From positions 1 through 64,000 of IMG/VR virus record IMGVR_UViG_3300024265_000035: 64,000 nt of DNA; one strand, written 5' to 3'. The DNA comes from a virus. The notes below the pieces were generated by a model, which worked only from the letters and a program-made list of their open reading frames with translations, made no database searches and was not told where the DNA came from. This document shows, piece by piece, positions 24,722 to 60,561 of the stretch (within the stretch, counting starts at the first letter, position 1; each line of letters opens with the position of its first letter). A program made the translations under genes and the position numbers.

Positions 24722-25240
24722 TTATCTGTTAGTCTTTTTGTGGTGTAGTCTGTCTATACAGGTCCATAGAAATGGGTGTGATTCGGACGTCATGTCGTTC
24801 CCTGTATAGTACTTCTCGAAACCTATTGCCCAGTACTCTGCAACATCGCTTTTGATGCGTGCGTGTACCATAGATCCTGAGAGCATGACCCACTCTCCCA
24901 CGAGTAGAGGGTCTCCCGAAAACCAGTCGGTTTCCTCATCCACGTGGTGTCCAACCTCATGTATAAAAATCTGATCCAGTCGGTCACAATATTCTTTGTT
25001 GCAACCTACTCGGATCTTGCCATCACAATAGTCACCTTCAAGTTTTGACTTTAGGTATGTGAAGTAAATCTCTTTTAGGCCTGAGGTGTGTGAGAGCGGA
25101 AATTGAATCTCCTCCATCTTCGACATTAATACTGTCAGCAGGCCTTTAGGCACTTGTTTGTGGAACTTTATCAGCGTGTCCGACTTGTTTAAGAGAGTGA
25201 ACGTCCCGTTCTTGTTCTCCACTGCGTTCCACGATTCCAT
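24722..25240 (-). CDS. HExxH zinc-metallopeptidase-like protein
   Basis: A 172-residue protein. FIHEVGHHVDEETDWF contains HEVGH in a helix with a following acidic residue, compatible with a gluzincin or minimal zincin. There is no signal peptide or membrane span, so it would act in the cytoplasm or inside the virion. It starts at ATG 25240 after AGGGA, but its first 95 bases overlap the upstream gene, far more than any other overlap here. The downstream 90 bases to the ssDNA-binding protein start hold no gene. Confidence 0.65.
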   Translation of the reverse strand: MESWNAVENKNGTFTLLNKSDTLIKFHKQVPKGLLTVLMSKMEEIQFPLSHTSGLKEIYFTYLKSKLEGDYCDGKIRVGCNKEYCDRLDQIFIHEVGHHVDEETDWFSGDPLLVGEWVMLSGSMVHARIKSDVAEYWAIGFEKYYTGNDMTSESHPFLWTCIDRLHHKKTNR

Positions 25241-26069
25241 TAGATCCCTTTTTTAGAATAGGATCGACCCTAAACTGTACATCTCCTTTGAATGTTCCAA
25301 TGAATTTAACGAGTCTATCGATGACCTCACGATCCATGACATAATATCCAAGCTCTTCATGCACGAATATGACAGAATCTGCCTTCTCAAATAAAATCTC
25401 TGATGGTTTGATTGAGTTCCATAGATTATCAAAAATGTCTGAATCGATGAATTCGTCATCAATCCTAGATAGAATATCATCAACAGAAGAGAACTTGATC
25501 CCTGGATCAATTCCCGCGACACGTGCAATCTTAATGAATTTCCTCAGCGGAAGTGCTACAACTTCGTTGCCAATCAACGCATCAATATTTGTCTCCCGGT
25601 CTGCCTTATTACGAAGCTCACTAAGGATTTGTTTCAATCCAAGGATTGGATCTCGCTTCTTCTTAAAAGTGCGCCCCAAGACAGAACCACGACCAATACC
25701 TTTCTCAGTCGCTTCAGCAATATCATTGACTCTATGACAAAGTTCCCAAATACCCTGCTCTTTAAGGTCCGAGATTAATTCAGAATTAAATGCATCTCTC
25801 AATTGTTGAGACACACGACAGATTTTTTCACGGAAGTTCGAAGAAAAAGTCCAAGGCTCAATGGTTGACCTGAATGCTCCAAGCTGCTTGACCTCAATCT
25901 TCTCGCCATCTGGACCGAGCACGTCGAAATCTTGTTTTTCAGCTACAGTTCCACCAATCTGATGTGCAAGCTTATGCTCACCATTACCTGTTTGTTTGCA
26001 GCTCACACCCATCGCAGCGGATGCATCGAACGGTATATCGTTAAGTTTATTCCACTTGTGCCAATTCAT
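25146..26069 (-). CDS. Putative PD-(D/E)XK-type nuclease
   Basis: A 307-residue protein. Near the N-terminus AEKQDFDVLGPDGEKIEVKQL has the layout D-(x)n-E-x-K (D50 region, IEVKQ) of PD-(D/E)XK endonucleases, in which the Asp and Glu bind metal. Downstream segments are helical and basic (KKKRDPILGLKQILSELRNK) and do not match a named family. I infer a DNA nuclease, possibly host-DNA degrading or recombination-linked. The C-terminal 30 residues overlap the metallopeptidase gene in a different frame, which may mean that the true end is shorter in relatives. Confidence 0.5.
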   Translation of the reverse strand: MNWHKWNKLNDIPFDASAAMGVSCKQTGNGEHKLAHQIGGTVAEKQDFDVLGPDGEKIEVKQLGAFRSTIEPWTFSSNFREKICRVSQQLRDAFNSELISDLKEQGIWELCHRVNDIAEATEKGIGRGSVLGRTFKKKRDPILGLKQILSELRNKADRETNIDALIGNEVVALPLRKFIKIARVAGIDPGIKFSSVDDILSRIDDEFIDSDIFDNLWNSIKPSEILFEKADSVIFVHEELGYYVMDREVIDRLVKFIGTFKGDVQFRVDPILKKGSNGIVERSGEQERDVHSLKQVGHADKVPQTSA

Positions 26070-26119: not shown

Positions 26120-29100
26120 TTATTTCTCTTCCTCATCCTCTGGCGGAATCTCTTTATTATTGACACGATTAAACTGAGCAGTCGACCAAGGAGAAGACTG
26201 CGCGCCGCGGCCAGCAGCATAGTGACCCATGCCCGACATCGACATGCTAGTGCCTGGAGGGGCGCCAAGCTCAGCAATGAATCGTTCAGCGAGCTTTCTT
26301 GATGCATGCTCCAACACATCGGGCTCTGCACCAGGTGAATTAGATTTACCTAGATCATTGATTATATAATGAGAACCCCGCTTCATCACATTACCACTGT
26401 GATAATCAGCGAATTCGATATTGTGTTGTCTCAATTCAGCATGCATTTCAGGAATGTTGTATTTCTTTAAGAGATTTATATTGAACCCATACTGTCTCGT
26501 TGTAGCCTTTCTAATCTTATTTGCACCCTTGGGATCATTTGGATCTACACCAAGTTCTTTTGCAGCTTCCTCTTTATATTTTTCATAGAGAGCATTTTCA
26601 AACTCTTCCCATGATTTTGTTGCAACAATCTCGATAAGATCATCATGCTCTCCCATAAAATCAGTTGCTCTATCAACATCACGTTTTTCAGTAGCGCTAA
26701 GTTCTGTCAACTTCTCTGTTACAATACCGTAGATTAATGGCTCCTCTCCAGGAAATCTGAATACATCAAAGATCTTTACGACGTGTTGTAAAGCTGTTTT
26801 TCCTTTGAGCGAATTGCTGGTCACTGCTTCTCGTGCATCTGTCGTGACTTTAAGAACTTTTCCTCCGCCTGCATCAAATGCAATACCCATCGCTCCATGA
26901 CCAAGATATCCGAGTGATGACGCATTAATACCAGTTCTCTCTTTTAGTTTATCAGCGTTCACTATCACGATCTTTTCAAGATTATCAATGCCCACTGACT
27001 CTAGATCTGGGGATTTTTCTACTTCTGCTTCAGTGATTGCTTCCTGGATAGAGATAACATCTTTCATCTCTTCACGCATGTCATCATAGATGTTATCAAA
27101 CCCCTGTGGATCTGAGATAACGTGTGCGTCGAGCATCTTCTCAACGGTGTTCCTGTCATTCTTGGCAAGTGCGTCGCGAATTGCAGTGGATGATATTCTT
27201 TCCATGTCATCCATGTCATTCTTCACACCAGGAAGTTTCGTGACATTAACGAGTGCTGGATCGAAGTTGGGTAGATTCTCCCTGTTTGCAGCTGCATGCT
27301 GCATCTGTTTCTTCATGCTCTCGAATCTATCGGGACCGACAAGCACGTTGATAGCAATTTCGGGTTCAATGGATGAATTGTGATCGTTGATAATGTCAGA
27401 CAACACGCCTGGAATGTAGCCGCTGGCTTTACCTTCCCACTCAGCCACATACACTTCAACCTTCGGCATGACATCAGGTAGAGATCTTTGCATCATCTCT
27501 ACTCTTGTCTCGTATGACCACGGATTCTTCTTGTCTCTCTTGTTTCCTGCTACAATGACCACGACCTTTGTGAACTTTGATGCTAGGTCACGGATGATCG
27601 CTGCATGTCCTTTATGGAAAGGCTGGAAGCGACCGATAGTCACGCCGATAGTGTCTGCTGGGTTGTAGTTTGGTTCTTCAAACATGCTCTTCACAACTTC
27701 AGACACTATGTTATCAACGGTATTCATTGATTCTGAAACTTGAACGCCTGGAACATATTCCTTTACCCAATTCGCTGCCCCACGTGAACCGAAATCGTCG
27801 TTATCAGCATCCCAATCTTCGAAGTCATGAGAAAGAATCTTCGCATTCGGGGCAGCTTTCCTAAAGAAATCGACGAGCGCATTCCAATGTATATGAGACA
27901 AACCACCACTTTCCAGATCAGAAATATTATGCACTTCTTTCATGTCAGGTGTAATTGTTACCATCGCTCCACGATTTTTTAAAACTGGATTATCTCCCTT
28001 GTGTAAGACCCATAAGTCTGCACGTTTTGCCAGCATGTCGGGATCATGACCCGTATTGCGCCACTCATATCCACCATCTATTTTTACAGCGCTTCTTGAA
28101 TCACCTCCAGTGATGAATCCAACAAATTTTTCATTTTCCTTAGAACGAAGAAGTTCCTCATCATTAAGTTCTGATTTTGTTTTGTTGAAGAACTCTTTCA
28201 CATACTTCCAATATTTTTGATCAGGAGCTCTATTCTCTTTTCCTTTTATCTGAAGAACTGTTTTATTTGCTTCATTCCACGTCATCGTCACGTGTGGTTT
28301 ATTGCTTGGATCACGAAGCGAAATTAAATTGCCACGTTCATCTTCACCACAGTGTCCCATTTTTTCAGCTTCATGAGGGCATGACGATTTCTTAAGATCA
28401 GTCCAATAAAAACCATCAGGAAATTCAATGATAGCATTGCTTTTATCTCGCTCTGCCGAAGCATCATCTGCAATCGTTTCAATTGTATTAAAGTCTTTTG
28501 CTGCCTGTATTTTCTTGGCTAGATGTGGTTTTTTCTTCAAAGTAGAAAGAAGATTTGAACCAAAATCCTCCATAAATTCATCGACTCTATCTTTTCTTTT
28601 TCCCAACTTAAAGCGCTGAATATTAGGTGGAAGCTGATCGTCGATGGTGAGAGATTCGACAAAGTCGTCATCCCATTTTTCACCATAAAGTTTAAACGCT
28701 GTAGCAAGTGCAAAAGTATGTTTTTTATCTATCTCATAGAAATGATCAGCTGCCCATTTTGGAAACTTAAGAAGCCTCGTAATATTTCCACGTGAGTCTT
28801 CATCGATCATGCCGACAGTGTCCGCCTCATTGGCGGTCTGATCACTACCGGCTTCTAGAAAAATAGAATAAACCTGTTCTCGAATGATTGACTCAAGCAC
28901 ATCGGGTTCTTCTCCACCTTGGACATCTGAAAGACCAATGTCAATCAAGACATATTCGCCTCCCCTCTTCATGAGGTTTTCACCTCGATAATCAGAGAAT
29001 GAAATGCCTTTTCCTTTCAATTCCTCCCATGAAGACTTTACTTTGTATTCATTTTCAAGCTTGTCAAGGATTTCAGTCGCCCAGTTTTTTGCAATCCTAC

Positions 29101-32100
29101 CCTCTTTAGATGCAGGATCACCACCACCCTTCTTCTTTACAGCATGTCGTATTGATTCCTTAACAGCTTCTTCCCATGTCTTAGCTCTTTTAAGCCAGAT
29201 AGGAAGACCAGTAAAGACCAGCATGTTGTCAAATTTATCTGATTCTTCTTTTGATAGTGGTTCAAGTTTTTCCTGTATGATCCCGTATGCTTGAAGATCT
29301 TTAAACCTGAAGACGTCGATTATTGCAGCGACATGTTTCATGGTCATGCCTTTGATCTTGTTGGACGCTATAGCTTCTTTTGAGTCCTTCGTGACCTTAA
29401 GAACCTTGCGGCCACCAACATCAAAAGCAGTACCCTGTGTTCCTTTACCTAGTTCTTTTGCAGTGGAAACATCAATGAGCTTCTTTGTCTTGAGTAGATC
29501 AGCATTCCTCTCGAGGATCTTCTTTGCATCTGCTGGATTGGAAGGATCTAGTCCCACAAGTCCAGTCTCTGGATCGTCCAATGGTTTTGAACCAGGTTCA
29601 TCATCAGCTTTCGCACCTAGTTTATCTCCTTTGCGGCGACCGACGGCACTTGGTTCATCAGGAGGACCAAACAACTCATCACCCAAAGCTTCAGTTAATT
29701 TCTCTACTAAAGAATTGATACTATCTTTTTTCATCTCACCAAATGCCTCACAAAGCTTGAACCATCTCACCCTTCCAAGTGCAGTTCTAATCATGTTGAG
29801 AGGAGAGAAATCCTCAGTCATAACTTCTTCGCGGATCCATGTATCCACTGAGAAGAACTCATTATCTGTCCTCTCCACGATTATCGGATGCATTGCGATC
29901 TTGTAGATGTGGCTCTCAAATACCGGTAGAGGCTGCGTCTTCCACGCCTCAGCAAGCTTAGAAAACCTGTAGATTGTAGCATTTGCAGTCTCAAGATACC
30001 TCTCTTTGTATCCCTCACTGAAAAGCTTGTTGTCATTGCAGAACTTGCTGAGTGCCTCGCCGAGTGATAGATTTCCGTAGTGCCTCTTCATGTATCCCAC
30101 AATTGCTGGAATCTTGAGAGTCTTGGATCCAATGACATGCTCCGCAACTTTGTTTCTAAACTCTTTGGTCAGACCTGGAGTCCAGACGCCATCTTCTTTC
30201 AATCCCTTACCGAGTTGCTCGCGGTGGCGCCACATGGTTTTGTTAAGTTCAGTGAAGAGATGGCGGTTGACAACTTTGACCATCTCATTTGTCAGCGTGT
30301 TTCGAATGACAATGCCCTCGACAATCTTCCCGCCAAAGTGTGGAAAGATCATGGCAACGTGTGTCATGAGATGTTCTTCAATTACATGTCGTTCTTTCAC
30401 CACAGGAAGCATGAATTTTCCAACTGGAACACACTCAAACATCCAACCGTCAAGCTTGACAGCTTCCGTGAGACGCTTGAATTCCTCAGACGTGTTGTGC
30501 AACACGATGGCATTTGGCCCATACTCCAACACATTGGGTACAGGACCGTCTAGAATCTCACAGGTGACGCTCAGTGCTCCTGCAGGCCAGTTTGATATGA
30601 TGGCCTCAGCCTGAGATTCAAGAGCCTCATGCGCCCTCTGGAGAGACGAGATGGCACGGCTATTTGGCCAGTCTCTCGAGTCCATGACGGGCCCATAGTT
30701 CTTTGACTTGGTCCACAGGGTTCCTTCCTTGACACCGAACTCCATGAAGGCTGAACCGTCAAGCTTCTCGGTAATTTCAGCATTTCCTGCACGCCAGGCC
30801 TCGATGAACTCCCAGAATTTCTCTTCCTTTAGATTACCGATGTGCGGAATGCCTTTTCCCATAGTGCTAATTGTATAACACTCAGGACGCAAAGTATCTG
30901 CTTTTTTGCTTTCTGTAAATTCTTTTGGAAGAGTACCACGATCATTCCTCTTATCATACCAATCTCCTTTATTGTTACCAGAACGATGAAGTTTTTCCAT
31001 GTCCTCTTCTACTATAATTTTAACATTATTTGAACCATGGTTTATTACAATGTATTCTTGCTCTTCGTCTCTATAGTCTGTAGATAATCTTCTCGTATAA
31101 TAGTTTATCAAGTTATCAAACCATGAAACAGTATGTTTTGGACCAGATATTAATATATCAGGTTTGTCTTTCAGTTCTAATATGTATCCAATACCTTCTT
31201 CGTTTCTATCAACACCGTATGCATTTGCTATATTTGCAAACCTGAGAGCCGCGTGTGGTTGTGTTGTCCAGCTACTAAATGCTCCAACTGTTGGTAATGC
31301 CAGCACAGAACCTTCACCATTTCCGATTCTTTTCTTTAACACTAATCCACGATATAGTGGTGGTAGACTTGTGGTAGTAAAAATTTCTTTGCGCGCTTGT
31401 GGATTTTGATATAGGAATTTAACATTTTCGACTGTCGTTTTTTTACCTGCTTCTTTGATTGCCTCCTTGCCCCATACCCACATAACGACTTCATTTAACA
31501 TACCAATAAGCGTCTTTTGCCCGTAGCGTGACATAAATGATTTAGCTTCTTTTATCTCACTGTCATTTAATTTAGAAAACGCTTTTCCAAGCTGTTGTTT
31601 GCCAACGACGGCAGCGGCCTCATTGGTAATCTTTCCGCCTGGCTCCGCAAGTTTCTGCTTGAACTGGTCCACTGGCATCTGAGACATGCCGCCAAAGAAA
31701 CCCTCATCATCATAGTGCTTGAGGTAGGCAGCTTTCGCTTCATCAGCACATCCAAAACCGAGCATGCACTTGTCTTCATCGTGTTCAATGAAGTCAGGCT
31801 TCGTCATCTGGTGCACGACATAGACCCACTCAGCATCCTCGTCATCACCGATATAGACATCTACTGGATCGTCATCGGTGCCCTCAGTTTCCTCGACATA
31901 GCCGTAGTCATGCTGCATCTTGGTCTTGCCAGTCTTGCCGTCACTGTCAGTCCACTCACGTGAAGAACCCTTTGACTGCTCTATAGAGATTGGGATATCC
32001 TGAAATGTATACCTGTCATCGAGCTTGAAACCTTCTTCGTTGTAACCTAGATCTTCTACGCCACAACCCATCTGTTCTGCATAGCCATCGAGCTTCTCTA

Positions 32101-33643
32101 CTTCAACGTCAGGTTCTGCGTGTTCTTTGAGAAAATCAAGGACATCAGGATCTGGATCTGACATAAAGATCTTTTCAATGTAATTCATCGCGAGCTTGTC
32201 GTTCTTCTTTAATTTTTCGATGAATGACTTTGTCTTTTTGTAATCGAACCACTCTTCTCCACTGGGTTTTTCAAGACTCGACTTGTCAATTGAATCAATA
32301 CGTTTTATACTAACGGCGGCATATGGGTTTGCAGAAACTTTCTTCAGTAGTTCTATCGTTGCGCGTTCGATACCAAATGGATCATCTTCATTGTCGTCAA
32401 ATTTCTTTCTAACCTTATCGACTTCAAACTGTATGGCACTCATGTCGATCTCATAATTTGCATCATCTGTTACGACGATGTTAACCACGTGACCTGGTAT
32501 ACGCTTTACGTATGCTTCGAAACCGGACTCATTAGCTGCTTTTGCAAACGCTGGTGATATACCTGAACATACTTTAACGGCACGTGAACATACCATTAAT
32601 TGAAAGACGACAACAGGGATTGCTTCCTTTAGCCACGATTTTAAATCAGATGTACTCTTTCCTTCCTTGAGCCTAGGATTCTTTGCGATTTTTATACGTG
32701 GATCAATCTCACCAGTCCGTGTCATGAGCAACGGATCTTCAGGGTCTGCATCGTGGATAGGTTCTGTGAGTTGTGGGCCTATCGATACTTCATTGGTAGA
32801 ATTTTCGATTGAAGATTGAGTCTTTTTAAGAAAAGCATTTATATATTTCCAGTATTTTTTATCTGGATCTTTACTTTGCTTTCCTGCAATTTCTGTAACG
32901 AGTTTTGTTTTTTCATCCCATGTCATTGTAACATGTGGACTATCATTTTGATCGCGGAGTGAAAACATTTCACCCTTAGATTGAACCTGACCACAATGCT
33001 GCATGAGCCCGCCTTCTAATGAACATGCATCAAATCCACTCACGCTAGAAAGGTTTGACCAATAAAACCCATCTGGAAACTGCATAAAAATTTCATCTCT
33101 TATTGCTTTACTTCTTTTCTTGTCAAGAGATATATTGGTAAAAATCTGGTCTATTGTTTTTTCATCATTAGCGTTGTTTATTTTTTTTGCCACAGATGGA
33201 TTCAATTCAAGCATCTCTATATATCTCTTTCCACCCTCATCGCCGTCGTCGTCACTCCAATGTTCATATACTATTTCAATATCTTCTTCACTCATGTTAT
33301 TACTAACATGTTTTATTTTAAAAATCTTTGCTAATGCAAAAGCTATCTTTGGATTAATCTCATTAAGATCATCAGCAATACTTCTTGGAAGCTTTAATAG
33401 CTTAACGATAGAACCACGAGAATCTTCTCTTAATTTATCAGAGAATGCCTCATCTTGCAACTCGGGTCTCTCATCGGGATCCTTAATCATACCTCCAAGT
33501 GGATATGACTTTGCAAACATACCCCTAGAACGCCCGCCGCCAGGACCTGATTTGTTTACAGTCTGTGTGGTAGCAGCATTTTTATGTCCAGTGAGCTCTA
33601 AGAGTTGCTCACGGATGATCTTGTCGAGATAACTGAGAGACAT
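26120..33643 (-). CDS. 2507-residue multidomain polyvalent protein (predicted injected polyprotein)
   Basis: One uninterrupted ORF with these modules, read by motif. 1-19: amphipathic leader (YLDKIIREQLLELTG). 73-277: PcfJ-like module (MQHCG, FSLRD, PHVTMTW). 340-412: thiol-peptidase-like (C352/C359, H385, D400, QF). 515-675: pyrophosphatase-like (QHDYGYVEETEGTDDDPVDV, CMLGF). 735-885: ADP-ribosyltransferase-like (YRG 764, FSSWTT 789, EQE 861). 928-1200: nucleotidyltransferase/ligase (EKLDG K960, EGIVIR 1109, MVKVV K1123). 1390-1575: kinase-like (LGKGTQGTAF, K1416, D1551, N1556, D1568). 1582-1599: second leader. 1615-1822: second PcfJ-like. 1973-1991: third leader. 1995-2185: NMNAT-like (GRFQPFHKGH, ISSTAIR). 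2240-2445: second kinase (K2265, D2413, N2418, D2430). Such polyvalent proteins are known to be packaged and injected to blunt host defence. Confidence 0.85.
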   Translation of the reverse strand: MSLSYLDKIIREQLLELTGHKNAATTQTVNKSGPGGGRSRGMFAKSYPLGGMIKDPDERPELQDEAFSDKLREDSRGSIVKLLKLPRSIADDLNEINPKIAFALAKIFKIKHVSNNMSEEDIEIVYEHWSDDDGDEGGKRYIEMLELNPSVAKKINNANDEKTIDQIFTNISLDKKRSKAIRDEIFMQFPDGFYWSNLSSVSGFDACSLEGGLMQHCGQVQSKGEMFSLRDQNDSPHVTMTWDEKTKLVTEIAGKQSKDPDKKYWKYINAFLKKTQSSIENSTNEVSIGPQLTEPIHDADPEDPLLMTRTGEIDPRIKIAKNPRLKEGKSTSDLKSWLKEAIPVVVFQLMVCSRAVKVCSGISPAFAKAANESGFEAYVKRIPGHVVNIVVTDDANYEIDMSAIQFEVDKVRKKFDDNEDDPFGIERATIELLKKVSANPYAAVSIKRIDSIDKSSLEKPSGEEWFDYKKTKSFIEKLKKNDKLAMNYIEKIFMSDPDPDVLDFLKEHAEPDVEVEKLDGYAEQMGCGVEDLGYNEEGFKLDDRYTFQDIPISIEQSKGSSREWTDSDGKTGKTKMQHDYGYVEETEGTDDDPVDVYIGDDEDAEWVYVVHQMTKPDFIEHDEDKCMLGFGCADEAKAAYLKHYDDEGFFGGMSQMPVDQFKQKLAEPGGKITNEAAAVVGKQQLGKAFSKLNDSEIKEAKSFMSRYGQKTLIGMLNEVVMWVWGKEAIKEAGKKTTVENVKFLYQNPQARKEIFTTTSLPPLYRGLVLKKRIGNGEGSVLALPTVGAFSSWTTQPHAALRFANIANAYGVDRNEEGIGYILELKDKPDILISGPKHTVSWFDNLINYYTRRLSTDYRDEEQEYIVINHGSNNVKIIVEEDMEKLHRSGNNKGDWYDKRNDRGTLPKEFTESKKADTLRPECYTISTMGKGIPHIGNLKEEKFWEFIEAWRAGNAEITEKLDGSAFMEFGVKEGTLWTKSKNYGPVMDSRDWPNSRAISSLQRAHEALESQAEAIISNWPAGALSVTCEILDGPVPNVLEYGPNAIVLHNTSEEFKRLTEAVKLDGWMFECVPVGKFMLPVVKERHVIEEHLMTHVAMIFPHFGGKIVEGIVIRNTLTNEMVKVVNRHLFTELNKTMWRHREQLGKGLKEDGVWTPGLTKEFRNKVAEHVIGSKTLKIPAIVGYMKRHYGNLSLGEALSKFCNDNKLFSEGYKERYLETANATIYRFSKLAEAWKTQPLPVFESHIYKIAMHPIIVERTDNEFFSVDTWIREEVMTEDFSPLNMIRTALGRVRWFKLCEAFGEMKKDSINSLVEKLTEALGDELFGPPDEPSAVGRRKGDKLGAKADDEPGSKPLDDPETGLVGLDPSNPADAKKILERNADLLKTKKLIDVSTAKELGKGTQGTAFDVGGRKVLKVTKDSKEAIASNKIKGMTMKHVAAIIDVFRFKDLQAYGIIQEKLEPLSKEESDKFDNMLVFTGLPIWLKRAKTWEEAVKESIRHAVKKKGGGDPASKEGRIAKNWATEILDKLENEYKVKSSWEELKGKGISFSDYRGENLMKRGGEYVLIDIGLSDVQGGEEPDVLESIIREQVYSIFLEAGSDQTANEADTVGMIDEDSRGNITRLLKFPKWAADHFYEIDKKHTFALATAFKLYGEKWDDDFVESLTIDDQLPPNIQRFKLGKRKDRVDEFMEDFGSNLLSTLKKKPHLAKKIQAAKDFNTIETIADDASAERDKSNAIIEFPDGFYWTDLKKSSCPHEAEKMGHCGEDERGNLISLRDPSNKPHVTMTWNEANKTVLQIKGKENRAPDQKYWKYVKEFFNKTKSELNDEELLRSKENEKFVGFITGGDSRSAVKIDGGYEWRNTGHDPDMLAKRADLWVLHKGDNPVLKNRGAMVTITPDMKEVHNISDLESGGLSHIHWNALVDFFRKAAPNAKILSHDFEDWDADNDDFGSRGAANWVKEYVPGVQVSESMNTVDNIVSEVVKSMFEEPNYNPADTIGVTIGRFQPFHKGHAAIIRDLASKFTKVVVIVAGNKRDKKNPWSYETRVEMMQRSLPDVMPKVEVYVAEWEGKASGYIPGVLSDIINDHNSSIEPEIAINVLVGPDRFESMKKQMQHAAANRENLPNFDPALVNVTKLPGVKNDMDDMERISSTAIRDALAKNDRNTVEKMLDAHVISDPQGFDNIYDDMREEMKDVISIQEAITEAEVEKSPDLESVGIDNLEKIVIVNADKLKERTGINASSLGYLGHGAMGIAFDAGGGKVLKVTTDAREAVTSNSLKGKTALQHVVKIFDVFRFPGEEPLIYGIVTEKLTELSATEKRDVDRATDFMGEHDDLIEIVATKSWEEFENALYEKYKEEAAKELGVDPNDPKGANKIRKATTRQYGFNINLLKKYNIPEMHAELRQHNIEFADYHSGNVMKRGSHYIINDLGKSNSPGAEPDVLEHASRKLAERFIAELGAPPGTSMSMSGMGHYAAGRGAQSSPWSTAQFNRVNNKEIPPEDEEEK

Positions 33644-33646
33644 CTA

Positions 33647-34018
33647 TCACTCCACTAGAGTCGGCACTCGGCGGCGAACTTCGTCTTCGATGTCTTGTCG
33701 ACGATCGACTTTCTCAATGATTTCAAGAGTCTTTTCCTGTGTCTCAACAACTCGGTCAAGGTGTTTGGCTACACTTGCTAGGTGCTCAGCCATTTTCTCT
33801 TGGTGGTTTTTCATGTCACTAATATCCCTCTCAATCATGATATTGTTTGTATGAACCTTTTCATAGGTTTCTCTAATCTGTCTTGAAACTTCAGGATGCA
33901 AGTGTATCGGCGACTTTCCGTTTTTCTTCGTATCCCATCTCTTAATAAAGAAATCGATTACTTTCGATAAAGCAATGATTACGGTAACGAGAGCAGCGAC
34001 TGTTCCTGGGGAATCCAT
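33647..34018 (-). CDS. Membrane-anchored coiled-coil protein
   Basis: A 123-residue protein. Residues 4-24 are hydrophobic (a single span), followed by a basic patch (IKRWDTKKNGK) and a long heptad-patterned coiled coil from about 42 to 115 (HLDRVVETQEKTLEIIEKVD). The basic residues after the span predict a cytoplasmic C-terminus. Size and layout resemble small phage holin-associated or XhlA-like proteins, but no family is certain. It ends two codons before the giant polyprotein starts. Confidence 0.65.
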   Translation of the reverse strand: MDSPGTVAALVTVIIALSKVIDFFIKRWDTKKNGKSPIHLHPEVSRQIRETYEKVHTNNIMIERDISDMKNHQEKMAEHLASVAKHLDRVVETQEKTLEIIEKVDRRQDIEDEVRRRVPTLVE

Positions 34019-34680
34019 TAGTTTATTTCTCCGCTACCTGATTTTTTACGTGCAGCTTTCGCTTTATCAAGCTCACCTTTTGGAATATTTTTAAGCTCCG
34101 GATTAATTCCCGGATCATAGTCTTGTGTTGACGCGAGTGCTATAGCAATTTGTCGCATCGACGACGTCAATTTCTTCTGCGGAAACATTCTCTCATCATC
34201 ACCATACCACTCATTTCCATCCCAATAATAGATGTGATCTGGGTTTTTTATTTTTCTCTTTTCTGGTTCACCTTGCGGATCAAACATCGCAAATCTATCA
34301 TCCCACCAAAGCTTTGCTGCAATATCGCCATCAGTAAACCACTCTTCTTCACCATTTTCAAAATAACTTTCACCTTTACTACTGATATCTTTAAAATGTT
34401 CTTCGCGCATGTCTGCAAACTTTTTATACGTTTCTCGAGCACTCTCTACATCATCTTCTGTTGCTGGCTTGCCGTCTGCTCGCTTAATACCTGCAGCTAT
34501 ATCTTCAGAATCTCTCTCTATAGCTGATCTATAAGCATCAGCCATACTCTTAAAAAATTCCTTCCACACATCTACAAACTTTCGCCTCGCGTCAGGTGGT
34601 AGTTCTTTAAACTTCACATATCTCGTTTCCTGACCACTATACATGGATTCGAACAGGAATATTCGTGCAAGAGAAATCAC
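34018..34680 (-). CDS. Predicted packaged protein with capsid-targeting-like leader
   Basis: A 220-residue protein from GTG 34680, which follows the tubulin-like gene's GGAGAGTAA. The first 13 residues MISLARIFLFESM fit the leader found on other small genes here (M-I-x-L-x-x-I-F then F-E-S). The rest is charged and helical with a Trp-rich part (WFTDGDIAAKLWWDDRFAMF; IYYWDGNEWYGDDE). No enzyme motif is recognised. I infer a virion-internal protein cut after the leader by the prohead protease. Confidence 0.65.
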   Translation of the reverse strand: MISLARIFLFESMYSGQETRYVKFKELPPDARRKFVDVWKEFFKSMADAYRSAIERDSEDIAAGIKRADGKPATEDDVESARETYKKFADMREEHFKDISSKGESYFENGEEEWFTDGDIAAKLWWDDRFAMFDPQGEPEKRKIKNPDHIYYWDGNEWYGDDERMFPQKKLTSSMRQIAIALASTQDYDPGINPELKNIPKGELDKAKAARKKSGSGEIN

Positions 34681-34685
34681 TATAT

Positions 34686-35882
34686 TTACTCTCCGTACAG
34701 ACGGTGACCGTAGCTAGCCTTTGATGTCTTCTGTTCTTTTACTTTCTTACCACCAAGCTGCTGAAACTTGCTCAACTCCTTGATTCTACCATCCGGCCCC
34801 TTCATCCCACCAATAAGAGTATACACGTTTAAACGAGGTTTCTCATCTTCGTACACACCACGGTGCATCATTGCGTCACCTGTCAACATAGCAAGAGTAT
34901 CGAAACCTTCTTCGATTGCTGTGTTGTCTAATTCCTCGAGGATTGACGAACCGCCAAGAACAACGGCTGCAGCGTGTGATGCAGATGTTAGATCAAATCC
35001 ACCTGCTAACAGAGTCTTGCTAAGATTGCTCTTCAGTGCAGCAGACACAGAACCGCTGTCGTCGAGATTCTTCACAGACGTGACACCCATGATCATGCAG
35101 CCGCCGCTGCGCATGACTGACATGTAATCTGCTGTGTCGAATGTTGTATATTCAGTCGGCTTCTTCGTGATGATATTGAACACGTGGAAGAGACCCGCCA
35201 CTGTTGCATTGACAGTTGGCCAGAAACTCTTAACTGAGAGCTTCGGATACATCTTCTTTATCTTATCATTGTCGATGAATATAAGTGGACTAACGAGCTT
35301 CTTGTCTGCGTAGCCGACTAGTGTCTTTGAAAGCAGTTCGGCATTTTCAGCAACTGCCTTTGACGCTGACTCACCCGCAGTTGGAAGCGTCATGATTACA
35401 CCGACACGCTGGTCTGCGTTTGGTTGTCCAATGTGAGTGAGATATAACTTAGCAGTCTCCACGAGAACAAGTGTTGAGCCGCCACCTGATCCACCACCAG
35501 CACCGACACAGATCATGATGTGATCGACTGGTCCAAACTTCTTCTTCATGAGGTCGAGTATCTGTTGCTGTGAACCAGCTGCTGCAGACTCTCCCTTCGC
35601 CATGTCTTTTCCAGCACCCTGCTCTCCTGCATTGAGAAGCACCTTCTGATCTTCTGGCACATCAACTTTGCTGAGATCTTGTATCGCAGTATTCACGCAC
35701 AGTGTCTTCTTGTAGCCAAGTTTATAGAATGCCTGAGCTAGCCGACAGCCTCCCTGACCTGAACCGAGGAATGCATATGTCACAGCACCGCCGGACTCGT
35801 CTTCTAGGGACTCATCCTCATATTCTTCTAACTCTGCTTCTAATGGCAGATCAGGAATTTCGATGTCAAATTCTTCACTCAT
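34686..35882 (-). CDS. Tubulin/FtsZ-superfamily GTPase
   Basis: A 398-residue protein. After an acidic 30-residue start, YAFLGSGQGGCRLAQAFYKL (36-55) matches the N-terminal nucleotide loop of FtsZ/TubZ (GxGGxGxN), and VNTAIQDL follows as FtsZ's INTDAQAL. The tubulin signature is GAGGGSGGGS (127-136), equivalent to GGGTGTG. LIFIDNDKI and the downstream beta-alpha pattern fit the GTPase and activation domains. Phage relatives (PhuZ, TubZ) form filaments that centre replication compartments or segregate plasmid-prophages. Here it sits among predicted cargo genes rather than in replication genes. The tail is basic (KKVKEQKTSKASYGHRLYG). Confidence 0.85.
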   Translation of the reverse strand: MSEEFDIEIPDLPLEAELEEYEDESLEDESGGAVTYAFLGSGQGGCRLAQAFYKLGYKKTLCVNTAIQDLSKVDVPEDQKVLLNAGEQGAGKDMAKGESAAAGSQQQILDLMKKKFGPVDHIMICVGAGGGSGGGSTLVLVETAKLYLTHIGQPNADQRVGVIMTLPTAGESASKAVAENAELLSKTLVGYADKKLVSPLIFIDNDKIKKMYPKLSVKSFWPTVNATVAGLFHVFNIITKKPTEYTTFDTADYMSVMRSGGCMIMGVTSVKNLDDSGSVSAALKSNLSKTLLAGGFDLTSASHAAAVVLGGSSILEELDNTAIEEGFDTLAMLTGDAMMHRGVYEDEKPRLNVYTLIGGMKGPDGRIKELSKFQQLGGKKVKEQKTSKASYGHRLYGE

Positions 35883-36526
35883 GTTCCACTTCCTCCAGTC
35901 GATGGGCCAAACTGAACATCTCCTCTCGTCCCGAACGGGTCAAACTCACCTATACCGTGAGTCTTCTCTTTCTTATTATCTTTTGATTCCCATCTCTTTG
36001 TATGGAGCAATCGCACTTTATTTGGATCGATATGCCTGATTATTTTAGCAGAACCATCAACAAGTACTTCGACCATGTCGGACGCGTCTCTTTTCTTTGA
36101 CATACTTGATGGATCACCCTTCCAATATTCTTCTGCATATGCACGGGCTTCTTTTGATTTAAAGTCTGCTTCTGTCCAATATTCCATGTTTGTATAAAAT
36201 ACTTTACCAGTCACTTCAACCTGATAGACATCATTGAAATTATCTTCAGACCATATGTCACTTGCCCATGATATTGCTGCGTATATACTTGGAAATACCA
36301 GTTTACTTCCTAATCGTGATGGTCGATCTGGCCATTTTTCTTTTCTCACTTGATCAAATAATTGTTCTTGTTCTTCCATGCCTCTAACACCATTGAATGT
36401 TGGAACTTGCATGCCTGGCTCAAATTTAGTAGAACCCTCCGCGGGGTTTGATACCCAAAAAAAACTCTTATTAGCTGAAACGTTTTCAAGTTTCTCTATA
36501 ATATAAATTTCTTTAAGAGTGATCAT
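35879..36526 (-). CDS. Leader-bearing predicted cargo protein, possibly ADP-ribosyltransferase-like
   Basis: A 215-residue protein from ATG 36526 (TAATG overlap with the upstream stop). It starts MITLKEIYIIEKLENVSANK, the shared leader form. The body has a pattern seen in small ADP-ribosyltransferases: LVFPSIYAAISWASDIW (a 'S/F..P.xxxAxxwA' strand-helix) followed by DVYQVEVTGKVFYTNMEYW (VYxVExxG). This is suggestive only, since the catalytic Arg and Glu are not clear. It overlaps the tubulin-like start by ATGA. The C-terminus (EFDPFGTRGDVQFGPSTGG) is disordered and shares DPFG with another leader-bearing protein (60205-59738). Confidence 0.55.
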   Translation of the reverse strand: MITLKEIYIIEKLENVSANKSFFWVSNPAEGSTKFEPGMQVPTFNGVRGMEEQEQLFDQVRKEKWPDRPSRLGSKLVFPSIYAAISWASDIWSEDNFNDVYQVEVTGKVFYTNMEYWTEADFKSKEARAYAEEYWKGDPSSMSKKRDASDMVEVLVDGSAKIIRHIDPNKVRLLHTKRWESKDNKKEKTHGIGEFDPFGTRGDVQFGPSTGGSGT

Positions 36527-36984
36527 TAACCCGATTCCCATGTTCCAGGAGGATAATCATAATATACTTTTTTTTCTCCTGGACTATAGTTGGCTAATTC
36601 CCCTTGTCCGCCATCTGCTTTTGGATCCCAAATCCAAACAGGATCATCCTTAATTGGGCCAGCTTCAGCCCAAAGAGTCTCGTCTTTTTCAACAAAAACC
36701 CAATCTGACGGATCTGGATTAACTTCTTCATGCTCTATGGATGTCCAATACTTAGCAAAATCTGGAAATTTAGAAGTTACATCACCCCATGATAGTTTCT
36801 TTGCAGGAGAATTGTATACGTCATCTATTCCTTTCGGTGATGTCCTAGTAGACACAGGTTGTGACCTCTTTGTCCAAGGATCTGCTTTGCCTGTCGGCTT
36901 CCTCTTTCCAGCTGGATCATCAAACTTACCCCAAGGGAAGTCAGCTTCCCAAAGACGTCTGTATATTTTCTTTAGTCTTATCAT
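36526..36984 (-). CDS. Leader-bearing predicted cargo protein (FPWGKF type)
   Basis: A 152-residue protein. MIRLKKIYRRLWEADFPWGK shows a basic amphipathic leader and a likely prohead protease site (LWE|AD). It is followed by FPWGKFDDPAGKRKP, which recurs almost exactly in the gene at 59738-60205, 23 kb away. The rest is Trp/Pro/Asp-rich without a known fold (DDPVWIWDPKADGGQGELAN). It starts directly at the stop of the previous gene (TAAATG). I infer packaging into the head. Confidence 0.7.
   Translation of the reverse strand: MIRLKKIYRRLWEADFPWGKFDDPAGKRKPTGKADPWTKRSQPVSTRTSPKGIDDVYNSPAKKLSWGDVTSKFPDFAKYWTSIEHEEVNPDPSDWVFVEKDETLWAEAGPIKDDPVWIWDPKADGGQGELANYSPGEKKVYYDYPPGTWESG
36922..36941 (-). 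repeat. 20-base identical block in two cargo leaders (copy 1)
   Basis: The 20 bases here are identical to 60143-60162 and encode the FPWGKF segment just after the predicted leader cleavage site. Outside this block the two genes diverge, which suggests conserved function at this position or module exchange between cargo genes. Confidence 0.75.
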
Positions 36985-37542
36985 TTAGACTCCCACATTC
37001 GAGACTCGCATGCTCGAACCACCAAACTTCAGTGGTCGCTTGCTGTGGTTAATCCCAGTTCCAAGTGGGTCCAAGTCGTCATCGTCGATCAGATGTGCTT
37101 GCGTTTGACTTACTTCAACTTCTCCCAAAGCACCATTGTTAGAATCTGGAACATCATCACGATCATGTCGAGGATCTACTGAGGAATAGAAACCTTCACT
37201 GAAGCGATAGATGCTCTCGAGTTTCGGCATCCTCGATTCTTCTTGGTGGTCATAGTACTGTGGATCATCGACAAGGTGATCCATCGCTATTTCCATTGCT
37301 GCTGCAACATCACTAGTGTGTTCAAGTTCGTGGTGCATACCTTGCATTAGCTGCACTTGATCGAACTGCCCGGGATCATACTGTGATCCTTCTCCGCCTG
37401 GTAGACGTTCCATCGCGATGGGATTAGCATGTTCCTTCTTATCAGGCAGCTTGTCGTAATTAGTTCCTTTTCCTAACTTCTTTGCAAGCTTTGGATCATT
37501 AGCATAGGCCCACTTCTGTTGTTGTCTTGAACGAAATGGCAT
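36985..37542 (-). CDS. DUF5661-like protein fused to a leader-type segment
   Basis: A 185-residue protein. It begins MPFRSRQQQKWAYANDPKLA, a common phage head-associated start. HHELEHTSDVAAAMEIAMDHL with DPQYY matches the short DUF5661-like helix pair. After this, MPKLESIYRFSEGFYSS at 105-121 has the shape of the leader on neighbouring genes, ending with FSEG, a candidate protease site. The remaining C-terminus is polar and probably disordered. This looks like a fusion of two small head proteins, with the junction cut during maturation. Confidence 0.6.
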   Translation of the reverse strand: MPFRSRQQQKWAYANDPKLAKKLGKGTNYDKLPDKKEHANPIAMERLPGGEGSQYDPGQFDQVQLMQGMHHELEHTSDVAAAMEIAMDHLVDDPQYYDHQEESRMPKLESIYRFSEGFYSSVDPRHDRDDVPDSNNGALGEVEVSQTQAHLIDDDDLDPLGTGINHSKRPLKFGGSSMRVSNVGV

Positions 37543-37546
37543 TATT

Positions 37547-38131
37547 CTACAGTTCGTTTCGAATCTGCCCCTTGAAGAAGAATTTTATCATCCCGGACTT
37601 TCCAAGCAAAATATGGAGAGGATGTGGGATTTCCTCGAATTGGATGACAACCTCATGTGCACCACCCATCATCTTAGATTCAGGATTATATGCAATCGAC
37701 TGAATCTGTCGACCGGTTATTTCTTTCGAAATAGCTCCGCCTTCTTTCTCTTCTTCATCTCCCTGATCCTCGACATCCTGCGACAGTTCTGTGTCTGATG
37801 GATCTGGATCTCCTGCTGGAACTTCCTCATCAGGAATGTCCTGGTCACCCGCTTCTGGATCAGCTGGCTGTTCCGGTGGCGATTCTTCTCCCGGAGGTGG
37901 TGCTTTTGGCTCATCACCCTCTGGAGCACCAGTCGCTATCTCAGCTCCCCGCTTTGGTGCCATGTCTGTGCCAGATTTCTCGGGTGCGACATTGTCATTG
38001 TCTTTATCAGCACCTTGGACGCCAGGCTCTTTATCTTCCTTATCGTCTGCTTCGAAGAACTCTCTTATTAGGAGCTCAAGCTCTTCGCGGACAATCTTCT
38101 CAACTCTAGATTTCTTAAACTTGATCGACAT
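37547..38131 (-). CDS. Acidic, Pro-rich leader-bearing protein (head core-like)
   Basis: A 194-residue protein from ATG 38131, 7 bases after AGGGAAG. The first 28 residues form an amphipathic helix ending EFFEADDKED, a good (F-x-E-A) protease site. Residues 30-140 are almost entirely Asp/Glu/Pro/Gly (low complexity), as in phage core or scaffold proteins. A compact C-terminal domain follows (SIAYNPESKMMGGAHEVVIQ; HPLHILLGKSGMIKFFFKG). An internal head or core role is inferred; the acidic linker may mimic DNA. Confidence 0.6.
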   Translation of the reverse strand: MSIKFKKSRVEKIVREELELLIREFFEADDKEDKEPGVQGADKDNDNVAPEKSGTDMAPKRGAEIATGAPEGDEPKAPPPGEESPPEQPADPEAGDQDIPDEEVPAGDPDPSDTELSQDVEDQGDEEEKEGGAISKEITGRQIQSIAYNPESKMMGGAHEVVIQFEEIPHPLHILLGKSGMIKFFFKGQIRNEL

Positions 38132-59737: not shown

Positions 59738-60205
59738 TTATTTTAATCTTCCACCAAATGGGTCATAACCAAAATCTTTAAGTATCTCAGGTTCTCTACC
59801 GAGATGTATGTGACGTTCCCAAGTTTTACCGCCATCAATATCTGGATGTGCTAAGAATACAAAAACTTCACCTGAGTCCGGGTCAATTACTTCAGTTCTA
59901 AACTTCTTTCCACCATGATCCCATAAAGTCACGTCTGTCAATTTTCCAAGATCTATACCTTCTTCTTCAATTTTTTCTCCAAAAGCAGTATGTAGCTGAT
60001 TGCCGACTGTGCGATAGAAGTCGACATTTTGAATCTGCTTACCGTCGGTGGTGGCATCTGCATTCCCGACGCCGAGATCTTTTGATGTTAAACCAGCACT
60101 TGGAGGAGTCGGTCTTGCACGATGTTTTCCCTTTGGATCTTTAAACTTACCCCAAGGGAAGTTGGCTTCAAAAATTCGCTTGTATATCTCAGTGAGCTTG
60201 ATCAT
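59738..60205 (-). CDS. Leader-bearing predicted cargo protein (FPWGKF type, paralogous leader)
   Basis: A 155-residue protein. MIKLTEIYKRIFEANFPWGK then FKDPKGKHRARP is nearly the same opening as in the gene at 36526-36984, with IFE|AN as the predicted cleavage site. The body is beta-rich (FRTEVIDPDSGEVFVFLAHP) and unrelated to that other protein; it ends DFGYDPFGGRLK. ATG 60205 overlaps the upstream stop by ATGA. Conserved leader plus different body suggests modular cargo. Confidence 0.7.
   Translation of the reverse strand: MIKLTEIYKRIFEANFPWGKFKDPKGKHRARPTPPSAGLTSKDLGVGNADATTDGKQIQNVDFYRTVGNQLHTAFGEKIEEEGIDLGKLTDVTLWDHGGKKFRTEVIDPDSGEVFVFLAHPDIDGGKTWERHIHLGREPEILKDFGYDPFGGRLK
60143..60162 (-). 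repeat. 20-base identical block in two cargo leaders (copy 2)
   Basis: Second copy of the block at 36922-36941; both lie about 15 codons downstream of the start in otherwise unrelated proteins. Exact DNA identity at this short scale in diverged genes hints at recent conversion or strong constraint. Confidence 0.75.
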
Positions 60206-60561
60206 GGTCCACCCTCCCAAACCTTGTTTCGTTCATCCCACCAAAGATAATCTTCTCCAATTTCAGATTTCAAATTATCGTTATATGCACGCCACTCACC
60301 TGAAAAATCTTCGAATTCCCATTTTGACGCATCTAAATCCATATTTGGATGGCCACTCCAATCATTAGCAAACTTGTCTGCAGCTTCTTTTTCTTTTGTT
60401 GTAAATTGATCCCATGTAAACACTGGAATCTTATCAGTCGATGATGTACCAGTTGATTGTTTTTGTTTTTCCCATGGGTTTGGATCACTAGGTTTTATTG
60501 GCTGTTGCTTATCGAAATCCCATTGAAGCGTGGCTTCGTATAATTTGATGAGCTTGATCAT
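60202..60561 (-). CDS. Leader-bearing predicted cargo protein
   Basis: A 119-residue protein. It starts MIKLIKLYEATLQWDFDKQQ, with LYE|AT as the candidate site. The rest is Trp- and Asp-rich (FANDWSGHPNMDLDASKWEF; DYLWWDERNKVWEGG), similar in flavour to the protein at 34018-34680, but without a family. The start is preceded by AGAGAG and lies just after the previous stop. Confidence 0.62.
   Translation of the reverse strand: MIKLIKLYEATLQWDFDKQQPIKPSDPNPWEKQKQSTGTSSTDKIPVFTWDQFTTKEKEAADKFANDWSGHPNMDLDASKWEFEDFSGEWRAYNDNLKSEIGEDYLWWDERNKVWEGGP

Follow-up and report, generated by a model that had tools for sequence, protein, structure and literature searches.

A 2507-residue phage protein built from shuffling enzyme modules, apparently an effector polyprotein cut by the head-maturation protease

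The core proteins gp22, gp67 and gp68 of phage T4 are cut at many sites by gp21, and most of the resulting fragments leave the head. The injected internal proteins of T4 are brought into the head by short N-terminal leaders, and gp21 cuts after L/I-x-E, removing these capsid-targeting leaders (PMC9026906). Polyvalent proteins were defined by Iyer et al. in 2017, who proposed zincins for their processing; the zincin-like MPTase domain occurs in 36% of polyvalent proteins, i.e., it is common but not obligatory (PMC5512222). NAD+ depletion is the route of many defences (PMC12774641), and tRNAs cut by defence nucleases are resealed by RNA ligases (PMC7824862).

The protein considered here is encoded by one giant ORF in the window, i.e., the whole 64,000-nucleotide stretch of viral DNA that was analysed. 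As in T4 gp22, gp67 and gp68, repeated head-protease cuts in a single chain are predicted, but the fragments of the giant protein would be whole enzymes. Like the polyvalent proteins, the chain joins unrelated enzyme domains, with packaging and injection predicted, and its InPase, putative ADP-ribosyltransferase (ART) and kinase types are on the list of Iyer et al. (PMC5512222), whose text yielded no match in searches for RNA ligase, NMN adenylyltransferase (NMNAT) or PcfJ-like domains (0 matches for PcfJ). Unlike many of them, it has no zincin (no zincin-like HExxH module lies inside the 2507 residues), and its apparent processor is a separate T4-type head protease, not a built-in peptidase. 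It resembles the T4 internal proteins and Alt in a short leader-like N-terminus, candidate L/I-x-E cut sites and a T4-type protease, and the enzymes injected by T4 include an ADP-ribosyltransferase, of which the chain has a putative one (PMC9026906); the T4 effectors are separate genes, whereas the giant protein puts many modules on one chain, with candidate sites in between. The P1 DdrB/Dar proteins are large, head-packaged, anti-defence and processed, as is proposed for the giant protein, but the modules are unrelated and P1 processing is attributed to a built-in zincin (PMC5512222). NAD+ would be rebuilt after host NADase defences, as by NARP1 or the NadM/NadR/NadV sets of other phages; NARP1, however, consists of other enzymes, and the NMNAT-like module would come pre-loaded in the virion (PMC12774641, PMC9503650). 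The sequence-only reading did not recognise this module combination, and no counterpart was found in the open-access literature searched, nor any account of NMNAT-ligase polyvalent proteins or of head-protease processing of polyvalent chains. What appears to be new within the known polyvalent class is a shuffling effector polyprotein, apparently cut by the head-maturation protease.

The virus record containing the ORF comprises 102,388 bases. The genome encodes a T4-type head-maturation protease (phrog_207, 4.5e-48; G000 71007-71600) as well as portal, sheath and tube proteins and a major head protein of the gp23 type, identifying the phage as a T4-supergroup myovirus; its terminase is T4-like, with Flavobacterium phage immuto and Microcystis phage Mel-JY01 nearest (~40%). 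The continuous frame claimed earlier is present in full, on the minus strand (2507 codons, ATG start, no internal stops; Table 1), while the plus strand of the same interval has many stops. SSB- and RecA-like genes adjoin it. The T4 late-promoter motif is not enriched (1 site vs. 1.9 expected), no tRNA genes were found in the window, and PADLOC assigned the giant protein to no defence family. A candidate internal start, GTG1582 with a Shine-Dalgarno-like site, was rejected: the spacing is long and the codons are fixed by the conserved protein. Elsewhere in the genome, the 1039-aa portal (L002:9661-12780, minus strand; genome 73661-76780) is interrupted by an HNH endonuclease-like insertion that is probably an intein.

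Table 1. Features of the giant ORF and its neighbourhood (window positions; a slash marks a candidate cut)
Feature	Position	Strand	Basis or remark
Giant ORF, whole; proposed head-targeted effector polyprotein	26120..33643	-	single open frame, 2507 aa; syntenic reshuffled homologues
N-terminal leader-like amphipathic helix (residues 1-20, MSLSYLDKIIREQLLELTGH), candidate cut after E16	33584..33643	-	leader profile
PcfJ-like module 1 (73-281)	32801..33427	-	paralogue of module 2; relative L007
Candidate site LTE294/P, PcfJ 1 to thiol-peptidase linker	32762..32764	-	
Putative papain/transglutaminase-like thiol peptidase (326-470; C359, H385, D400)	32234..32668	-	motif only
InPase, type I inorganic pyrophosphatase-like (498-677)	31613..32152	-	PF18823 6e-35
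Putative R-S-E ADP-ribosyltransferase (685-884; R765, FSSWT 789-793, E861xE863)	30992..31591	-	motif; movable module
RNA ligase-type nucleotidyltransferase and C-terminal domain (918-1300; KLDG at 960, CEILDG, VEGIV, VKVV)	29744..30892	-	weak Pfam, conserved motifs
Candidate head-protease site LTE1318/A, ligase to kinase 1 linker	29690..29692	-	
Kinase-like module 1 (1361-1576; K1416, D1551, N1556, D1568)	28916..29563	-	paralogue pair, relatives, PDB profile
Candidate head-protease site FLE1597/A, in leader-like helix, kinase 1 to PcfJ 2 linker	28853..28855	-	
PcfJ-like module 2 (1613-1827)	28163..28807	-	paralogue of module 1
Module without assignment (1829-1975)	27719..28159	-	no profile match; found in the giant protein alone, not in relatives
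Candidate site MFE1989-E1990, before NMNAT	27674..27679	-	
NMN adenylyltransferase-like module (1996-2171; GRFQPFHKGH, ISSTAIR)	27131..27658	-	Pfam, NCBIfam, PDB
Candidate head-protease sites IQE2201/A and ITE2205/A, NMNAT to kinase 2 linker	27029..27043	-	
Kinase-like module 2 (2215-2438; K2265, D2413, N2418, D2430)	26330..27001	-	paralogue pair, PDB profile
C-terminal tail, conserved Gly/Ser-Trp-Ser motif common to relatives; candidate cut after E2458	26123..26329	-	
Restriction-endonuclease-like gene	25146..26069	-	just downstream of giant gene
Zincin-like metallopeptidase gene (HExxH)	24722..25240	-	beside giant gene, conserved there in four phages
Upstream genes, several with leader-like N-termini	34018..38131	-	34018-34680, 35879-36526, 36526-36984, 37547-38131

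Nine modules had been claimed, in an order along the chain that holds, and the residues named for them (K960, K1416, D1551, D1568, K2265, D2413 and GRFQPFHKGH at 2004) all lie where they were placed. The majority, seven of the nine, are backed by profile searches or relatives, i.e., the two PcfJ-like modules, InPase, RNA ligase, NMN adenylyltransferase and the two kinases; the thiol peptidase and the ADP-ribosyltransferase stay at motif level. Domains of disparate biochemistry (InPase, ligase, NMNAT, kinases, PcfJ) are thus found in one ORF. InPase and NMNAT stand out clearly in the Pfam, NCBIfam and PDB searches. NMNAT is an NAD+-making enzyme; the module here matches PF01467 (3e-15), TIGR01527 and PDB relatives of MJ0541 and contains both NadM-like motifs, GRFQPxHxGH and S-[ST]-x-x-[IV]R, and no NadV partner was seen in the giant protein. 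The kinase-like pair are paralogues (38% identity, 6e-38) with the catalytic Lys, Asp, Asn and Asp invariant across nine kinase copies; their relatives score above the cut-offs for APH and ABC1, and in the PDB the profile matches Ser/Thr kinases. The PcfJ-like pair are also paralogues (37% identity, 5e-41); neither copy matches PF14284 directly, and their identity comes through the relative L007, which clears the PF14284 cut-off (4e-9) and matches the giant protein at 1.6e-7. The ligase module scores under the Pfam cut-offs (PF09511 1e-5, PF09414 3e-3) and drew no support from a PDB profile search, yet its motifs KxDG, CEILDG-VPN-EYG, EGIV and VKVV are kept in closer relatives and in distant proteins, e.g., of phage PA5oct; a weak scan of bacterial genomes found no relative of it. 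Among GenBank phages at 1e-5, only InPase and NMNAT gave matches.

The ART-like module is 35% identical to that of the related giant L120, with R, S-x-W-S/T and ExE kept in both (InPase is 53% identical in the same pair), and received no support in profile searches, the PDB included. The thiol-peptidase region likewise has no profile match, PDB profile search included, and no structure support, and none of the relatives found has it. For both this region and the ART region, the AlphaFold models were unusable (pLDDT 38 and 42 for the two models).

Relatives were gathered by scanning viral contigs with terminase, NMNAT and ligase alignments; scans with the whole protein, the ligase alone or the kinase pair gave no matches, single proteins being poor search patterns. 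Two close relatives recruited via the terminase search, L120 (1185 aa) and L121 (1904 aa), have a giant ORF at the same locus, flanked by the polymerase/tail side and by the SSB/RecA-like genes. The order in L120 is leader, InPase, kinase, kinase, ART, NMNAT, whereas L121 has a ligase, three kinases, NMNAT and a fourth kinase, its ligase being followed by an ART-like stretch; neither this ART nor that of L212 shows a profile link to the ART of the 2507-aa protein. A further giant, L128 (5963-12001), runs from a Pol-beta-like nucleotidyltransferase (recognised by eye) through ligase, SLT lytic transglycosylase, kinase and NMNAT to an endonuclease-like domain. In L128, L209 and L214, the giant has at its C-terminal end the restriction-endonuclease-like domain that the window encodes as a separate gene at 25146-26069 (E 5e-20); the other giants are L209, L211/L212 and L214, and L215 is a minimal NMNAT-ligase protein. 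A metagenome search for the same domain order had been suggested: the modules do recur in viral contigs at the same locus, but order and copy number differ, indicating a shuffling polyvalent protein whose architectures vary around a common set of domains (PA to PH are the reshuffled relatives). GC3 per module ranges from 0.25 (ART) to 0.55 (ligase) with abrupt shifts along the gene, a variation of 5.5 times expectation that resembles recombining tail genes. Reshuffled relatives and GC3 contrasts together show a gene that gains, loses, duplicates and rearranges its modules. The transglycosylase of L128, between ligase and kinase, matches at 6e-27. In L120 the HxGH of NMNAT is replaced (GRFQPFHRDW), so this copy is probably inactive and not all NMNAT copies need be active.

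A second family of giants, running from NMNAT to a ligase-like module, was found in G018, G020, G021, G022 and ~16 more contigs of immuto-like phages, often encoded directly upstream of terminase and in some chains with a zincin-like HExxH. In Flavobacterium phage immuto itself, the 907-aa gp183 contains both NMNAT and HExxH. A profile-profile alignment of the ligase types of the two families gives 5.6e-6, and their motifs correspond; since both families carry matching ligase and NMNAT, the union of NMNAT with an RNA ligase in one chain is recurrent. Across 34 distinct contexts preceding the second-family ligase, L/I occupies -3 in 34/34 and E occupies -1 in 33/34, with -2 free; judged from the residues, this positional pattern is the specificity of gp21.

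A short helix of one of two patterns, M-[IK]-x-L-x-x-[IL]-Y or L-x-x-I-I-R-x-E-L, opens many proteins of the genome. The N-terminus of the giant protein is its best match to a profile built from the other leaders (~9e-5 per position); residues 1-71 are conserved in L120, with the leader-like N-terminus at 63%. Capsid-targeting-like leaders had been claimed for the neighbouring genes and were indeed seen on several of those upstream, where they end near L/I-x-E. However, a count of L/I-x-E on leader proteins is circular, because the regular expression that selected them itself contained x-E. Stand-alone relatives of the PcfJ, kinase and ligase modules carry such leaders too. In the stand-alone ligases L196, L204 and L136, a short N-terminal leader ends at the same L/I-x-E site as the internal one before the ligase module, which gives the internal site the appearance of a leader cut site retained when the parts were fused. 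Leader-like helices are weakly enriched at internal junctions (5 of the top 6 matches, p=0.0007; 9 of the top 30, p=0.05), and some of these helices may be the conserved kinase C-terminus.

Several other proteins of the phage and its relatives deserve mention. The leader-bearing proteins at 36526-36984 and 59738-60220 (minus strand) have a common extended start, FPWGKF-DP-GK, with little other obvious likeness, making reuse of a leader cassette possible. The DUF5661 protein (PF18905) at 36985-37542 (minus strand) has a leader-like stretch in mid-protein (MPKLESIYRFSEG), and a giant L124 protein also contains a DUF5661 module. A small protein adjoining terminase (L002:13225-13752, minus strand) combines a leader-like start with a PARP-like ADP-ribosyltransferase region (PF00644 0.004, under cut-off). 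A Tubulin/FtsZ-like GTPase lies at 34686-35882 of the window (minus strand; PF00091 1.1e-10, over cut-off), with a TubZ-like C-terminal domain (1e-4).

The published L/I-x-E motif was counted in the linkers of seven related giants, with module cores taken from HMM matches and set before counting. The linkers contain 54 copies vs. 25.4 in composition-preserving shuffles (0/2000 shuffles reach 54), a density 3.0 times that of module cores (p=1.5e-9), although these p-values are too optimistic, as the giants are related to each other and the linkers follow module boundaries that we drew. The variant motif [LIFM]xE[AG] occurs 24 times vs. 6.1 +/- 2.5 in shuffles, and control motifs (reversed; D, K, R and Q versions) show no significant enrichment in linkers. 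The motif is short and the cores also hold 89 copies, so not every L/I-x-E can be a real cut; the InPase-ART linker and the linker from PcfJ 2 to the next module have no clear copy.

From the ORF, its modules and their shuffling, the protease gene and the linker enrichment, we infer cleavage, head targeting, injection and function as follows. The giant protein is probably a head-targeted polyprotein that is cut in the prohead by the head-maturation protease into separate injected effectors of early infection. While the head assembles, the N-terminal leader-like helix, plus related ones at some internal junctions, would bring the chain into the core of the prohead; the T4-type protease would then cut at linker L/I-x-E sites, freeing separate enzymes that would remain in the head and enter the host alongside the DNA. 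Head targeting is supported indirectly, by the leader-like helix, the leader-bearing neighbours and the T4-type head protease in the genome, and the leader-like start and protease motifs lend similarly indirect support to delivery with the DNA. Placement in a polyvalent, multi-enzyme, probably head-packaged class fits, and the sequence-only interpretation is partly supported.

The sequence-only reading had pictured a single injected protein, i.e., a polyvalent protein of the usual kind that enters the head and then the host as an intact chain whose modules act joined, like the virion RNA polymerase of phage N4. The module content suits the polyvalent class, polyvalent phage proteins have been proposed to be injected, and the N4 polymerase is packaged uncut (PMC5512222); the intact chain, however, leaves the L/I-x-E enrichment of the linkers and the pinpoint conservation before the ligase without a reason, and the nearest precedents, T4 Alt and the IPs, are cut (PMC9026906). 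We thus rate it as rather unlikely, and the available evidence favours a polyprotein cut between modules. The cutting, before or after injection, might instead be done by the neighbouring zincin-like metallopeptidase, whose HExxH gene is kept beside the giant gene in four phages, or by the putative thiol peptidase of the chain itself. Zincins were proposed as processors by Iyer et al. (PMC5512222), and some second-family giants include a zincin-like HExxH, but the linker motif is the published motif of the T4 head protease and the thiol peptidase is missing from the relatives found, which makes this route unlikely.

A role outside the virion is more doubtful still: the protein could be a multi-enzyme chain that is made during infection and serves RNA repair and NAD metabolism inside the cell, expressed between the head/tail and replication genes. 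Both NMNAT and RNA ligase belong to the usual intracellular enzymes of phages (PMC7824862), SSB-/RecA-like genes adjoin, and the late-promoter motif is not enriched; against this stand the conservation of the leader-like N-terminus in L120, the leaders on stand-alone homologues of the modules and on neighbouring genes, and the head-protease motifs. Abrupt GC3 shifts within the gene could also point to an assembly or reading-frame artefact fusing separate genes, but this is scarcely credible, given seven more giants from other contigs and samples, every one of them a single open frame that sits at the same locus or shares the modules.

For the polyprotein cut in the prohead, the NMNAT and RNA ligase core would restore NAD+ and reseal cut RNA, making the earlier proposal of countering host defence and repairing damage plausible. 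InPase would clear the pyrophosphate made by the NMNAT and ligase reactions; pyrophosphate clearing was raised for InPase by Iyer et al. (PMC5512222), and the tie to NMNAT and ligase is ours. Host proteins would be the substrates of the kinases and of the putative ADP-ribosyltransferase. We lean slightly towards a wider reading, that making injected effectors as polyproteins is general among T4-supergroup phages, with the head-maturation protease freeing whole enzymes from shuffled strings, leader-plus-cut-site modules adding combinations, and NMNAT with RNA ligase forming a preloaded repair kit. If true, unrelated effector domains of one chain would reach different targets by being cut apart in the head, by a protease that every T4-like phage already has, and a sequence rule of leader plus L/I-x-E linkers would predict injected proteins in uncultured phages. 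The pair of NMN adenylyltransferase and RNA ligase, present in at least two giant families, could then be tested as a pre-loaded answer to defences that deplete NAD+ or cut RNA.
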